Source: Streptomyces pseudogriseolus
Lineage (GTDB): Bacteria > Actinomycetota > Actinomycetes > Streptomycetales > Streptomycetaceae
Reading direction: 5' to 3'
DNA: 45,865 nt
Assembly: GCA_002154585.1 (NCBI GenBank)
Contig: MUNG01000033.1
Coordinates: 1-45,865 of the forward strand
Positions 13,381 through 17,035 of the stretch are shown here, piece after piece. Within the stretch, counting starts at the first letter, position 1, and each line of letters begins with the position of its first letter. Position numbers and translations under genes: made by a program. The notes below the pieces were generated by a model. That model was not told where the DNA came from. It saw only the letters and a list, made by a program, of their open reading frames with translations, and did no database searches.

Positions 13381-13716
13381 TCAGGCACTGCGGGGGGTGG
13401 CCGAGATGGTCCGCGGGGCCGGGGAGTCGGACTCCACCTGCCGGTGGTCCCGCTGGTCCAGGTTCACAAAGATCATGCCGTACCGGATGGCGCACCGGAC
13501 GGGCTTCGGCGCCCCCCTGGGCCGGCGCAGGCACCGGTACGCCCGTACGTCGCCGTCCTCCTCGCGGGTGACGACCACGGGCTCACCGAAGACGGTCACC
13601 ATCAACGAGTCACCGCTGTGGGGGATGGCGGTGACCAGGTCGATGAAGTGCCATCCCGACCGGTAGGCGGTCGCCATCTCGCGCCGGAAGGAACGGTCGT
13701 CAGGTGGGGTGGTCAC
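13381..13716 (-). CDS. Shrunken Rieske-like protein without Fe-S ligands
   Basis: The 111-residue product reads like the N-terminal Rieske domain of ring-hydroxylating oxygenases: G-W-H-F-I-D-L (21-27), V-F-G-E-P-V-V-V-T-R-E-E-D-G-D-V-R-A-Y (42-60), then R-Y-G-M-I-F-V-N-L-D (78-87), the usual end of that domain. The ligand motifs C-x-H and C-x-x-H are missing. The first reads R-R-P-R-G-A and the second loop is deleted, so no 2Fe-2S cluster is expected. GTG 13716 has GGAG five bases upstream and starts one base after the stop of the secreted-peptide gene, so the two are one operon. The function is unknown; a binding or scaffold role for the peptide is speculative. Confidence 0.6.
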   Translation of the reverse strand: MTTPPDDRSFRREMATAYRSGWHFIDLVTAIPHSGDSLMVTVFGEPVVVTREEDGDVRAYRCLRRPRGAPKPVRCAIRYGMIFVNLDQRDHRQVESDSPAPRTISATPRSA

Positions 13717-13717
13717 G

Positions 13718-13951
13718 TCAGCTCCAGATGGTGTCTGCCGGGAGGTAGACCACGCCCTCGCCGTCACCCGTGCCCACGGCTCCACTCGACCAGACGGTGT
13801 CGCCGGCCTTGCCCGACCAGACGGTGTCCCCGTCCTCACCGTTCTGCGCGTCGGAGGTGCCACTCAGCGCACCGAAGGCCACAACGGCGGAGAAGGCGGC
13901 GACAAGCACCGAGCGAAGCATTCTCTTACGCATAGTCGGCTTCGTCCTCAC
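13718..13951 (-). CDS. Short secreted peptide with three D-T-V/I-W-S motifs
   Basis: A 77-residue precursor. A basic start (M-R-K-R-M-L-R-S) and a hydrophobic core (about 14-30) form a Sec signal peptide with likely cleavage near S-D-A (35). The mature part, about 42 residues, is acidic and Gly-rich and carries D-T-V-W-S at 42-46 and 51-55 and D-T-I-W-S at the very C-terminus (73-77). GTG 13951 follows AAGGGGA. It is cotranscribed with the Rieske-like gene and divergent from a LuxR-type regulator gene. I do not recognise a characterised homologue. The repeats suggest a signalling peptide or a modified (RiPP-like) precursor; this is inference. Confidence 0.6.
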   Translation of the reverse strand: MRTKPTMRKRMLRSVLVAAFSAVVAFGALSGTSDAQNGEDGDTVWSGKAGDTVWSSGAVGTGDGEGVVYLPADTIWS

Positions 13952-14026
13952 TCGAAGGTCCCCTTTTCCCCCGTCAAGTAAGACGATGGCTCATTCGGGC
14001 ACGTCATGGCCACACGATCGGTGCAT

Positions 14027-14043
14027 CATGTTCCTGCATGTTC
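14027..14043. promoter_or_regulatory. Direct repeat CATGTTC x2, one helical turn apart
   Basis: CATGTTC at 14027-14033 and again at 14037-14043, a 10-base period, lies just before the first LuxR-type gene in the divergent promoter region. It could be a regulator half-site pair. No data tie it to a protein. Confidence 0.3.
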
Positions 14044-14064
14044 AGGAGCCTGGGGGGTGGAGAT

Positions 14065-15048
14065 TTGTCAACGAATCGGACCAAAGCGGTGCATCCCCAT
14101 CCCATGGCGGAGCTGTGCGCGGAAGGAAGTCGTCTGTACGCGAACGCTCTGCGCACGGGACGTATCACCCGGGCCGAGGCCGAAGCAGCCCCCTGCCTGC
14201 TCGACTTCTCCCTGCTCCATCCCGACCCGGACGACCCCGACTGGCTGCGTCCCGTCCCGCCGTCCGTGGTCCTGGCCCAGCGGCTGGACCCGATCGAGCG
14301 CGAGATCACCGAACGCAGACGGCTGACCATGGAGTTGGCGGAGACGTTCGAGCCGTTCATCGGGCTCGGCGCACCCCTGACGGAACCGGTCCACTCCGTC
14401 ACCGTGCTCGAAGGGCTCGACCGCATCAACGAGGCGCTCGACCTGGCGACCTCCCAGTGCCGGCACGAGGTGCTCACCGTCCAGCCGAAGAACCGGCACC
14501 CGCAGCAGCGCCTGATCGAGGCGCTGGAGCGCGACCGGCCCCTGATCGAACGCGGGGTGCGGATCAGGACGCTGTACCAGCACACCGCGCGGTACAACCC
14601 CGAACGCATCGCCTGGACCGAGCAGTTCGCCGACGGCAAGGTGGAGTACCGCACCATCGACGAGCTGGTGGAGCGGCTCATCATCTGCGACGACACCGTC
14701 GCCTTCATCCCCGTGCGGGACGACCGGCAGGTCGCCCTGGAACTGCGCCACCCCGGCCTGGTCCGCTACCTCATCAAGGTGTTCGAGTTCATGTGGGGCC
14801 GGGCGGTCCCGCTCACCGCCGGCACCCCCTACGAGACCGCCGCGGACGGTCTCACCGACATCCAGCACTCGATAGCCAAACTGCTCGTCGAGGGACACGT
14901 CGACGAGGCCATCGCGCGCCGCCTCGGCATGAACGTCCGCACCTGCCGGGCGCACATAGCGAAGCTGGCCACCGCGCTCGGCAGCGGCAGCCGTGCCCAA
15001 CTGGGGTACCTCATCGCGCAGTCGGGAATTCTCGAGCAGGACCACTGA
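14065..15048 (+). CDS. LuxR-type regulator with TrmB/PLD-like sensor (paralogue 1)
   Basis: A regulator of about 327 residues. An N-terminal helical winged-helix-like segment carries A-P-C-L-L-D-F-S-L-L-H-P-D-P-D-D. The middle region is PLD/TrmB-sensor-like (E-V-L-T-V-Q-P, then G-V-R-I-R-T-L-Y-Q-H-T, then V-A-F-I-P-V). The C-terminal LuxR helix-turn-helix contains A-K-L-L-V-E-G-H-V-D-E-A-I-A-R-R-L-G and V-R-T-C-R-A-H-I-A-K-L. No H-x-K catalytic motif is seen, so the PLD-like part is likely a ligand sensor. The start is uncertain: TTG 14065 has a G-rich site seven bases upstream, while ATG 14038 has none. It is divergent from the secreted-peptide gene and 18 bases upstream of its paralogue. 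Confidence 0.72.
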   Translation: MSTNRTKAVHPHPMAELCAEGSRLYANALRTGRITRAEAEAAPCLLDFSLLHPDPDDPDWLRPVPPSVVLAQRLDPIEREITERRRLTMELAETFEPFIGLGAPLTEPVHSVTVLEGLDRINEALDLATSQCRHEVLTVQPKNRHPQQRLIEALERDRPLIERGVRIRTLYQHTARYNPERIAWTEQFADGKVEYRTIDELVERLIICDDTVAFIPVRDDRQVALELRHPGLVRYLIKVFEFMWGRAVPLTAGTPYETAADGLTDIQHSIAKLLVEGHVDEAIARRLGMNVRTCRAHIAKLATALGSGSRAQLGYLIAQSGILEQDH

Positions 15049-15066
15049 TCCGGGAGAGCGACCAGC

Positions 15067-16041
15067 ATGAGCGGCGACGCGCCACACGAGGGGACGGACA
15101 CGCTGCGGGCGGAGGCGCTGGACCTGTACGCCCGCGCCCTGGCGCAGGGCCACCTGCCCGCCTCCGCGGACGAGGAGACCCCCCTCCTGCTCCGCCTCGG
15201 CCTCCTCCGTCCCGCCGACGACGACTCCGCGCGGCTGGAGCCGGTCGCACCGCACCTCGCCCTGCACCGGCTGCTGCGCGCCTCCGAGGACCGCGTCGCC
15301 GAGGAGCGGCGGCGCCAGGAACGGCTCGCGGAGACCCTGGCCCCGCTGCTGCGCGCCCCTGAACCGGCCGAGCGGGACTGCCCCTGCGTCGTCCGGCACG
15401 CCGGTACGGAGCACATCGGGAGGGCCATCAGCGAGGCGATGGACGACGCCACCGAACTCCTCGCCGTGCAGCCGTACCGCAGCTACATCAGATTCGACCC
15501 GGCCGTCCACGAGCCCGCCATCCGGCGCGACCAGGCCCTGCTGGACCGCGGCGGACGCATCCGCGCCCTCTACCAGCACACCCTGCGCCACGCGCCCACG
15601 CTGGCCGCGCGCTACGAACGCCTCACCGGTGACGTCGAGGCGCGCTCCCTGGACGAGATCACCGACCGCCTGGTGATCGTCGACCGCACGGTCGCCTTCA
15701 TCCCGGCCGGCCCGGAACGCTCCACGGCCCTGGAGGTGCGCCACCCCGCGATCGTGACGTTCCTGGGCACCACCTTCGACCGGCTGTGGCGCCTCGCCAC
15801 CCCCATGTACCCGGAGGCGGACCGCCAGCCCACCCTCAACGGCATCACCCCGCGCCAGCACGCCATCGCCGCCCTGCTCGTCGAGGGGCACACGGACGCC
15901 GTCATCGCCGACCGGCTCGGCATGAACATCCGCACCGCGCGCGAGCACATCGCCAAGCTCGCCGCCGTGCTGGGCAGCAGCAGCCGCGCGCAGCTCGGCT
16001 ACCTCATCGCGCGGTCGGGGATCCTCGACCAGGAGGGATGA
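15067..16041 (+). CDS. LuxR-type regulator with TrmB/PLD-like sensor (paralogue 2)
   Basis: A 324-residue paralogue of the preceding gene with the same layout: a weaker N-terminal helical segment, a central sensor (E-L-L-A-V-Q-P-Y, then G-G-R-I-R-A-L-Y-Q-H-T-L-R-H) and a C-terminal LuxR helix-turn-helix (A-A-L-L-V-E-G-H-T-D-A-V-I-A-D-R-L-G-M-N-I-R-T-A-R-E-H). The last 60 residues are nearly the same as in paralogue 1, so they may bind related DNA sites. GGAG precedes ATG 15067 by ten bases. It forms an operon with paralogue 1, and its 3' end overlaps the convergent third paralogue by 38 bases. Confidence 0.75.
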   Translation: MSGDAPHEGTDTLRAEALDLYARALAQGHLPASADEETPLLLRLGLLRPADDDSARLEPVAPHLALHRLLRASEDRVAEERRRQERLAETLAPLLRAPEPAERDCPCVVRHAGTEHIGRAISEAMDDATELLAVQPYRSYIRFDPAVHEPAIRRDQALLDRGGRIRALYQHTLRHAPTLAARYERLTGDVEARSLDEITDRLVIVDRTVAFIPAGPERSTALEVRHPAIVTFLGTTFDRLWRLATPMYPEADRQPTLNGITPRQHAIAALLVEGHTDAVIADRLGMNIRTAREHIAKLAAVLGSSSRAQLGYLIARSGILDQEG

Positions 16042-17035
16042 CCACCGGCGGCCGCGCGCCGTCCAGCCCCGCCTGCGCGATCCGCACCCCCAACTGCGTC
16101 CTGCTCACCGCCCCCAGCGTCTCGGAGAGGCGGGCGATGTGCGCCCGGCAGGTGCGGACGCTGATGCCGAGGCGTTCCGCGATCACCGCGTCCTGGTGGC
16201 CCTCCGCGAGAAGCGCGGCGATGGACTGCTCGCGGTGCGAGATGCCCTCGATGCCGGTGTCCGGGAGCGGGGCGGTCAGCGGGATCGCGAGCCGCCACAG
16301 CCGCTCGAAGACCGTGCCCAGGTACTCCACCAGCGCCGGGTGGCGCAGCTCCAGCGCCATCGTGCGCTCGGCGTTGGCGGGGATGAAGGCGACCGTGCGG
16401 TCGAAGAGGATGAGCCGCTCCACGACCTCGTCCAGCGTGCGCGCCTCCACCGCGTCGCCCATCAGCTCCAGATAGCTGAGCAGCCCGTGCCCGTGCCGGG
16501 CGACATGAGTGTAGAGGTCCCGCATCCGCACGCCCCGCCCGCGCAGCGCCATCGCCCGGTGCAGGCCCTCGGACAGTTCGGCCTCACGCCGGATGCCGCC
16601 GGGCTGCACGGTGAGCACCTCACTCGTGCACGCCTGCGTCGCCTCGTCCATCGCGGCCTGAATCCGGGCCAGTCCGTCCAGCACGCGGATCGCGGGGCCC
16701 TCCGCCGACGCGCCCGCGGACGGCACCTGGCGGCCGAGACCGGCGTACCACTCGAAGGCGGCGACCGCCGAGCCGACCCGGCGCTGACTGGCCCTCACCT
16801 CGTCGTACATGCCGCGCAGCAGCCGGGTCATGACCTCCTGCGGGGAGGTGGGGACCAGATAGTCCATGTCGTCCGGGTCGGGGTGCAGCAGGGCCAGCTC
16901 CAGCAGGCAGGGGACCCGCTCGGCCTCCCGGCGCGGCAGCCGTCCGCGCCGTACGGCCCGGGAGTACACGCGGTCCCCGGCCTCGCACAGTCGGTCAGCA
17001 CCGTGCGGATGCTCGTCCGCCCCGTGCCCGGCCAT
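16004..17035 (-). CDS. LuxR-type regulator with TrmB/PLD-like sensor (paralogue 3)
   Basis: A 343-residue regulator, convergent with the other two and sharing their plan. The N-terminal segment (V-P-C-L-L-E-L-A-L-L-H-P-D-P-D-D) is very close to paralogue 1. The middle has E-V-L-T-V-Q-P-G and G-V-R-M-R-D-L-Y-T-H-V-A-R-H, and the helix-turn-helix contains A-A-L-L-A-E-G-H-Q-D-A-V-I-A-E-R-L-G-I-S-V-R-T-C-R-A-H-I. ATG 17035 is preferred over the upstream ATG 17077 because the homology begins nearby; the ribosome site is only G-rich. The tail-to-tail overlap with paralogue 2 means strong transcription of either would read antisense into the other. Confidence 0.72.
   Translation of the reverse strand: MAGHGADEHPHGADRLCEAGDRVYSRAVRRGRLPRREAERVPCLLELALLHPDPDDMDYLVPTSPQEVMTRLLRGMYDEVRASQRRVGSAVAAFEWYAGLGRQVPSAGASAEGPAIRVLDGLARIQAAMDEATQACTSEVLTVQPGGIRREAELSEGLHRAMALRGRGVRMRDLYTHVARHGHGLLSYLELMGDAVEARTLDEVVERLILFDRTVAFIPANAERTMALELRHPALVEYLGTVFERLWRLAIPLTAPLPDTGIEGISHREQSIAALLAEGHQDAVIAERLGISVRTCRAHIARLSETLGAVSRTQLGVRIAQAGLDGARPPVVIPPGRGSPTAR

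Follow-up and report, generated by a model that had tools for sequence, protein, structure and literature searches.

A Repeated D-x-x-W Peptide and a TrmB/LuxR-Type Regulator Coevolve at a Streptomyces Locus: A Proposed Peptide-Pheromone System

A Peptide Precursor, a Rieske-Like Protein, and a Divergent Regulator Form a Conserved Locus

We analyzed a 45,865-nucleotide stretch of Streptomyces pseudogriseolus DNA (contig MUNG01000033.1, hereafter the window), in which a compact locus encodes a small peptide precursor, a Rieske-like protein, and three regulators that we call R3, R4, and R5 (Table 1). R3 is divergent from the peptide gene and is proposed here as the receptor of the peptide. The original prediction for this stretch, made from its letters, had described a 77-residue precursor with three D-T-V/I-W-S copies, the last at the exact C-terminus, followed by a coupled Rieske-like gene without either ligand motif and accompanied by three paralogous regulators, one of them divergent, and all of these features were borne out. 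Its proposal of a Sec signal holds as far as a basic start and a hydrophobic stretch, judged by composition alone. In the window the Rieske-like gene starts one base past the peptide stop codon, and on the far side of the locus lie a small gene, which we take to be pyridoxamine-oxidase-like, and a gene that we presume from its sequence to be clpB.

Table 1. Features of the locus, in positions of the window.
Feature	Position	Strand	Remarks
Rieske-like gene, cluster ligands lost, coupled to the peptide gene	13381..13716	-	About 112 residues
ATPRSA tail of the Rieske-like protein	13384..13401	within Rieske-like gene	End of the protein, behind a variable linker
Peptide precursor gene	13718..13951	-	GTG start, 77 residues; adjacent homologue at 101/101 loci
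Peptide precursor features	13718..13951	-	Basic N-terminus, hydrophobic stretch, then DTVWS, DTVWS, and DTIWS at the exact C-terminus
Candidate operator, palindrome TCCTGAACATGCAGGA	14032..14047	.	Best-conserved part of the R3-peptide intergenic region
R3, TrmB/LuxR-type regulator, divergent from the peptide gene; proposed peptide receptor	14065..15048	+	Frame open from 14038; inferred TTG start at 14065
R3 codon, alignment column 123 (Val145 of the 336-residue frame)	14470..14472	+	Covaries with peptide position 2
R3 codon, alignment column 208	14725..14727	+	Gln accompanies Pro at peptide position 5 (26/26)
R4, R3 paralogue	15067..16041	+	Without comparable peptide covariation
R5, R3 paralogue, convergent	about 16004..17035	-	Without comparable peptide covariation

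We compared the window with 100 relatives, for each of which an 11-kb stretch was fetched, giving a main set of 101 loci. The relatives were hand-picked down a ranked list of 168 matching genus genomes with some rows skipped; they come from its more similar part and do not form a random sample. Peptide frames were taken by a script that required a hydrophobic stretch and a Trp, not the motif itself; at one locus (L105), where the script had taken a spurious frame, the peptide was chosen by hand. R3, a small signal-bearing protein, and the Rieske-like protein occur together near clpB at 101/101 loci, with clpB inside every fetched stretch. The R3 gene is divergent from the small signal-bearing frame in the window and in all 100 relatives, and at all 101 loci the first base of the peptide stop codon falls in the interval from 8 bases before to 4 bases after the inferred start of the Rieske-like gene. 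The conserved association with Rieske-like and regulator genes across Streptomyces, which the original prediction had named as a check, was thus found. R3 itself more likely starts at the TTG than where its frame opens; a script placed a start codon 4–14 bases past a GGAG-like site at 74/101 R3 loci and gave none that was clear at the other 27.

The locus is widespread in the genus. Among 199 genomes drawn from it, the R3 model matched 168 at E <1e-60, and the Rieske-like protein was also matched in 168, five of these matches reaching only E >1e-5 and perhaps representing ordinary Rieske proteins. A strong R3 match (E <1e-130) was present in 161 genomes, all of which carry the Rieske-like gene (E <1e-10). 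In two genomes (G048 and G063), the Rieske-like gene is accompanied by R3 matches that are only weak, part of the G063 R3 reading N, and neither gene was strongly matched in the remaining 36. A draw of 150 genomes from the family gave 30 matches, all within the genus and none in the 16 other genera; at least eight genomes of the genus itself had no match. The number of R3-family regulators per fetched stretch, counting frames of 250 residues or more, ranges from one to five (loci L066–L165), and a scan of the window's own genome (E up to 1e-5) gave none outside the window.

Peptide Copies Agree within a Precursor and Differ between Species

The mature parts of the 101 precursors contain 266 Trp residues, 262 of which lie within [D/N/E]-x-x-W. 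The D-T-V/I-W-S motif predicted at the outset is present in the window and is better written as [D/N/E]-x-x-W plus one residue, with DTVWS as the version of this species. The signal part of the precursor is alike between species, and the remainder is hypervariable except for the short units. The dominant tetrapeptide takes 35 forms among the genomes, including DTVW, DSHW, DITW, EPSW, and NTSW. A copy lies within one residue of the C-terminus in 30/101 precursors.

Within a precursor, the copies agree. The tetrapeptide is uniform across copies in 69 of the 73 multi-copy precursors of the main set, and in 2,000 trials in which copies were shuffled among precursors the mean number with uniform copies was 2.7 and the maximum was 9. 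A second locus set behaved similarly, with uniform copies in 52/57 multi-copy precursors. Identical copy pairs differed in synonymous codons in 221/370 cases and the residues flanking the copies are 25–58% identical, so copy identity is kept at the protein level and not just by recent duplication.

R3 Residues Change in Step with the Peptide

We measured covariation in 100 R3 sequences, leaving out locus L078, whose R3 contains a stretch of N (column 123 there is Val and the peptide has DTGW, conforming to the rule below). Matches between genomes at each R3 alignment column were compared with matches at each peptide position, with overall R3 and clpB similarity removed. Column 123 was tied to peptide position 2 with a partial r of 0.744. 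The 95% point of the maximum over 60 label permutations, which ignore relatedness, was 0.165, and the best control columns for the same comparison, 0.19 in ClpB and 0.29 in the Rieske-like protein, lie far under 0.744. When tabulated, the association is a simple residue code: Ser at position 2 goes with Met at column 123 (48/48), Thr with Val (23/23), and Pro with Leu (7/7), while Ile, Val, or Leu goes with Val or Ile (22/22). At position 5, Pro is accompanied by Gln at column 208 in every case, and Gln also occurs in two genomes with Gly. Position 5 is tied to columns 136, 175, 135, and 133 as well, and position 3 more weakly to columns 132 and 168; the columns for position 1 show more scatter. 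For positions 2, 3, and 5, the top two columns in each case fall within columns 123–208, which correspond to the alpha/beta sensor domain of the R3 model.

These changes recurred many times. With the R3 tree built without the specificity columns and switches counted by parsimony, 18 joint switches between Ser-Met and Thr-Val were inferred on the R3 tree and 21 on the clpB tree, with no genome in a mixed state. Nine pairs of tetrapeptides differ only by Ser/Thr, each with the Met/Val switch, and the closest of them are otherwise carried by very similar regulators (292/314 identical R3 positions for DSRW/DTRW and 290/314 for DSHW/DTHW). A branch-wise test on the clpB tree lent weak support: R3 changes were 1.8x as frequent on branches where the peptide changes, compared with about 1.25x for ClpB and the Rieske-like protein, but the test singled out no column (lowest p 0.0016, uncorrected). 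Far clearer results came from the pairwise and tabular tests.

The rule was then fixed and applied to 80 named loci, of which 79 gave a peptide (the script found none at L228) and 11 duplicated an R3 of the first set. All 68 remaining loci obey it, 42 with Ser-Met and 26 with Thr-Val, and Pro at position 5 goes with Gln in 13/13. This replication holds only the Ser and Thr classes, and many of the species are related, so that it amounts to fewer than 68 independent events. The 80 named relatives carry Streptomyces titles except for Kitasatospora aureofaciens and an "Actinobacteria bacterium"; S. cellulosae is the nearest to the window, and S. coelicolor is not among the titles.

The paralogues of R3 provide a control within the same loci. 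For position 2, the best r was 0.13 in R5 versus 1.0 in R3 (70 loci) and 0.24 in R4 versus 0.71 in R3 (72 loci); for position 5, R5 and R4 gave 0.18 and 0.09 versus 0.61 and 0.39 in R3. No column of R4 or R5 tracks position 2 or 5 as in R3, and we rejected both as receptors of the DxxW peptide; they may sense something else. The same comparison bears on the idea that the DxxW units are chance or structural repeats, serving as linkers or wall-binding motifs unrelated to R3. Such an account would suit the free variation of the stretches between units, but the peptide and R3 match residue for residue through some 18 independent switches, with nothing comparable in any column of R4, R5, or ClpB, and we consider the account very improbable indeed. 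Because the peptide and the R3 residues changed together many times, we propose R3 as the receptor of the DxxW peptide, a role that the covariation strongly supports and that would be exercised through its TrmB/PLD-like middle domain.

Predicted Fold of R3 and a Candidate Operator

The AlphaFold2 model of R3 (predicted local distance difference test score, pLDDT, 78.9; predicted template modeling score, pTM, 0.49) consists of an N-terminal winged helix-turn-helix (HTH), a long helix, a PLD-like alpha/beta domain, and a C-terminal HTH, in that order. The best Foldseek match was TrmBL2 (5bpd, E 4.5e-14), with a low TM-score of 0.34–0.40 over all domains, and TrmB and PLD-family structures were matched as well; by sequence, R3 matched TrmBL2 at E 1.5e-4. 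The C-terminal HTH is of the GerE/LuxR type, scoring above the Pfam cut-off in R5 and below it in R3 and R4. A Pfam scan of the three regulators at E up to 1 returned GerE/HTH matches and a weak DUF7436, with no TPR and no autoinducer-binding domain.

The conserved block of the intergenic region between R3 and the peptide gene contains TCCTG-N6-CAGGA at 85/101 loci. The exact 16-mer of the window occurs once in its own genome, at the locus itself, with no further site at one mismatch and four at two mismatches (three for the reversed control). A wide regulon reached through the palindrome was not seen in this own-genome scan for the 16-mer, and we regard the palindrome as a candidate operator for this locus only.

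A Constant Rieske-Like Partner

Over residues 7–70, the Rieske-like protein can be aligned with the Rieske region at the N-terminus of aromatic dioxygenases (nitrotoluene and naphthalene dioxygenase, 5xbp and 4hjl). In this alignment the first ligand pair, Cys-x-His, is replaced by Arg-x-Pro, and neither Cys-x-His nor Cys-x2-His occurs in any of the 101 homologues; two other Cys residues are conserved, in 100/101 and 101/101. The protein is modeled as a small beta domain (pLDDT 72) with weak Foldseek matches (best E 6.9e-3), the 50 listed being mostly Rieske oxygenases. The protein is nearly invariant (89% mean column identity over 41 sequences). Separately, the ATPRSA tail is identical in 41/41 aligned homologues and could be a short binding motif.

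We rejected a peptide-modifying enzyme as the leading idea for this protein on the grounds of the lost ligands and of its near-invariance beside a varying peptide. We take it to be a binding or scaffold protein, a constant partner and not a Rieske enzyme. The same findings bear on a related alternative, in which the locus would make a multi-core product resembling a ribosomally synthesized and post-translationally modified peptide (RiPP), or an antimicrobial, whose cores are modified and released with help from the Rieske-like protein and whose product is sensed by R3. Repeated identical cores and a coupled partner gene are what such a pathway would have. However, the partner is without ligands and hardly varies with the peptide, and none of the three genes shared by the 101 loci resembles a modifying enzyme (the flanking genes were not surveyed systematically), so that we regard this account as improbable.

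A Proposed Pheromone Circuit

What the computations give directly is a conserved triad, a repeated and diversifying peptide, and residue-level coevolution with R3 that is clearest at positions 2 and 5. From these, we judge it very likely that the locus is a peptide-pheromone system of the quorum-sensing type. The original prediction had offered peptide signaling as one of two readings, and it is strongly supported by the conservation of the locus, by diversification between species combined with agreement of the copies within a species, and by the covariation of R3. Its companion suggestions found no support: among the three regulators put forward as peptide sensors only the divergent R3 shows clear peptide specificity, with none comparable in R4 and R5, and the modification reading gains nothing from a Rieske-like protein that is without ligands and nearly invariant while the peptide varies.

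In the proposed circuit, the small precursor would be secreted, as its signal-like sequence suggests, and cut outside the cell to a peptide of about five residues, [D/N/E]-[S/T/I/V/L/P]-x-W-[S/P/D/G...], a length suggested by the repeats and by the copies ending at the C-terminus. Since R3 looks cytosolic, the peptide would be re-imported by an oligopeptide permease, and it would bind the TrmB/PLD-like middle domain of R3. Bound or free R3 would act through its DNA-binding domains on the control region shared by R3 and the peptide gene, probably at the palindrome, and it may, at least indirectly, affect antibiotic production. Private dialects between species would arise from matched changes in the pentapeptide and the pocket.

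The suggested output comes from S. coelicolor, whose clpB we take to be SCO3661. Because the gene order clpB, SCO3664–SCO3666 matches that of R3, R4, and R5, SCO3664 is likely the R3 of that species. An insertion in SCO3664 (described as a "regulator") raised actinorhodin more than 50-fold in a transposon screen of S. coelicolor, with a complementation plasmid listed (PMC6585502), and SCO3665 and SCO3666 encode LuxR-type proteins with lengths of 327 and 394 residues (PMC3282765).

A number of points weigh against the pheromone reading or narrow it. The maxima for ClpB and the Rieske-like protein exceed the permutation threshold, which is therefore too lax when used alone, and the contrast between R3 and its paralogues is modest at position 3 (0.07 and 0.12 in R5 and R4 versus 0.14 and 0.17 in R3) and at position 1 (0.34 and 0.31 versus 0.57 and 0.37). 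Copies are non-identical in 4/73 and 5/57 precursors; the four of the main set are L140, L143, L149, and the window's own (DTVW, DTVW, DTIW). The length of the peptide is uncertain, as the last copies with Pro at position 5 (26/26) lie well inside the precursor and the residue after the Trp differs within several precursors. The candidate operator is nearly unique in its genome, so that a wide direct regulon is not evident. In distant pairs, described below, Ser goes with Met in only 1/5, with Leu in the rest. The identity of SCO3664 draws on gene order, not sequence, and binding of the peptide by R3, strongly supported as it is, on covariation. Finally, we infer secretion, cutting, import, the operator, and the physiological output, with a putative protease and a putative importer.

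The receptor-ligand evidence would apply equally to a self-monitoring circuit, in which the peptide probes secretion or extracellular proteolysis and is read back by the producing hypha through R3, with diversification arising by drift or by coevolution without cell-cell signaling. A stress role of this kind would fit the presence of clpB in every fetched stretch. Against it, the occurrence of 35 tetrapeptides, with matched switches time and again, suggests selection for private specificity, and several copies per precursor would raise the dose of a released signal. We consider self-monitoring unlikely and retain the pheromone reading.

Relation to Known Signaling Systems

TPR repeats define the RRNPP receptor family of Firmicutes (Rap, Rgg, NprR, PlcR, PrgX). 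In that family a secreted and re-imported peptide is read by a cytosolic receptor (PMC13220807), as we propose here, and a small propeptide gene adjoins the receptor gene (PMC10075063), an arrangement mirrored by the adjacent small gene at all 101 loci, whose product is probably exported. Unlike RRNPP receptors, R3 is TrmB/PLD-like with a LuxR-type HTH and without a TPR match, and the present system is actinobacterial, has several identical cores in many precursors, and includes an extra Rieske-like partner. By analogy, the system would work like RRNPP signaling without being a member of the RRNPP family.

The archaeal regulators TrmB and TrmBL2 are the best structural match and share the N-terminal winged HTH, the long helix, and the PLD-like sensor domain of the R3 model, whereas R3 adds a C-terminal LuxR/GerE-type HTH, has a proposed peptide ligand, and evolves in step with a neighboring peptide gene. 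R3 shares its C-terminal GerE-type HTH with LuxR receptors of acyl-homoserine lactones, but R3, R4, and R5 have no autoinducer-binding domain in the Pfam scan. The Rieske-like partner likewise aligns with the alpha subunits of Rieske ring-hydroxylating oxygenases, which its model weakly resembles, yet differs from them by the missing ligands and, at 112 residues, by having no catalytic domain. Gamma-butyrolactone signaling is also linked to secondary metabolism in Streptomyces (PMC13220807), but it employs a small lactone in place of a peptide and another receptor family.

Passages of PMC13220807 name gamma-butyrolactones for Streptomyces, and those of PMC4748050 name cyclic or modified peptides and gamma-butyrolactones for Actinobacteria; a linear peptide pheromone read by a receptor in the cytosol appears in neither set of passages. 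Our literature search, which did not reach bioRxiv or most subscription papers, found no report of this peptide-R3 system. We think it likely, if less so than the pheromone function itself, that the locus represents an undescribed class of actinobacterial peptide-pheromone signaling. In this class, a LuxR-HTH receptor with a PLD (TrmB-like) fold would recognize a D-x-x-W pentapeptide through a simple residue code. The system would occur in most of the Streptomyces genomes sampled, have paralogous pairs of receptor and peptide next to biosynthetic genes, and be coupled to antibiotic control.

If true, the main antibiotic producers would turn out to use a new chemical language, and a PLD/TrmB-type domain would emerge as a peptide receptor whose code can be read. 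Such a widespread peptide dialect, for which a receptor and specificity residues are proposed, lends itself to direct tests, and SCO3664, as the likely R3 gene, would offer a handle on antibiotic control. The system also offers one class of candidates in the long-standing question of what peptide signals Streptomyces takes up. BldK imports a peptide signal of 655 Da, and the poor conservation of its substrate-binding protein suggests strain-specific peptides (PMC9640686; see also PMC5650626); a link between BldK and this locus is speculation.

Distant Paralogues and Their Biosynthetic Neighbors

A distant search gave 51 matches in 14 genomes, 30 of them with loci, comprising 22 distinct regulators outside the clpB locus. 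By hand count, with spurious frames left out, 9/22 of these R3-type regulators face a small D-x-x-W-G-like frame. The clpB-type loci of three divergent species carry DPAWD, DPTWG, and a DVSW pair. Pro goes with Leu in 3/3 (two divergent clpB loci and one paralogue), which is no test of the code, as Leu is common there and also accompanies Ser. The occurrence of Leu with Ser in most distant pairs suggests that the pocket has changed, and the Ser-Met rule was rejected as universal.

Two of the distant pairs lie beside biosynthetic genes. In one (L331, G354), the regulator and its DxxWG peptide adjoin an aminotransferase I/II-type enzyme, TauD, and KAS III; in the other (L332, G405), a carbamoyltransferase, an ATP-grasp protein, and TauD. 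Their position suggests cluster-specific peptide control. Elsewhere, the R3 match is split into two pieces, next to a DVSW repeat precursor that looks intact (L305/L324, G418), and in another family of the order, R3-like regulators (L322 in G343, L323 in G340, and L313 in G351) lie divergent from small frames that contain DTGWG or have DQGWN at their end.

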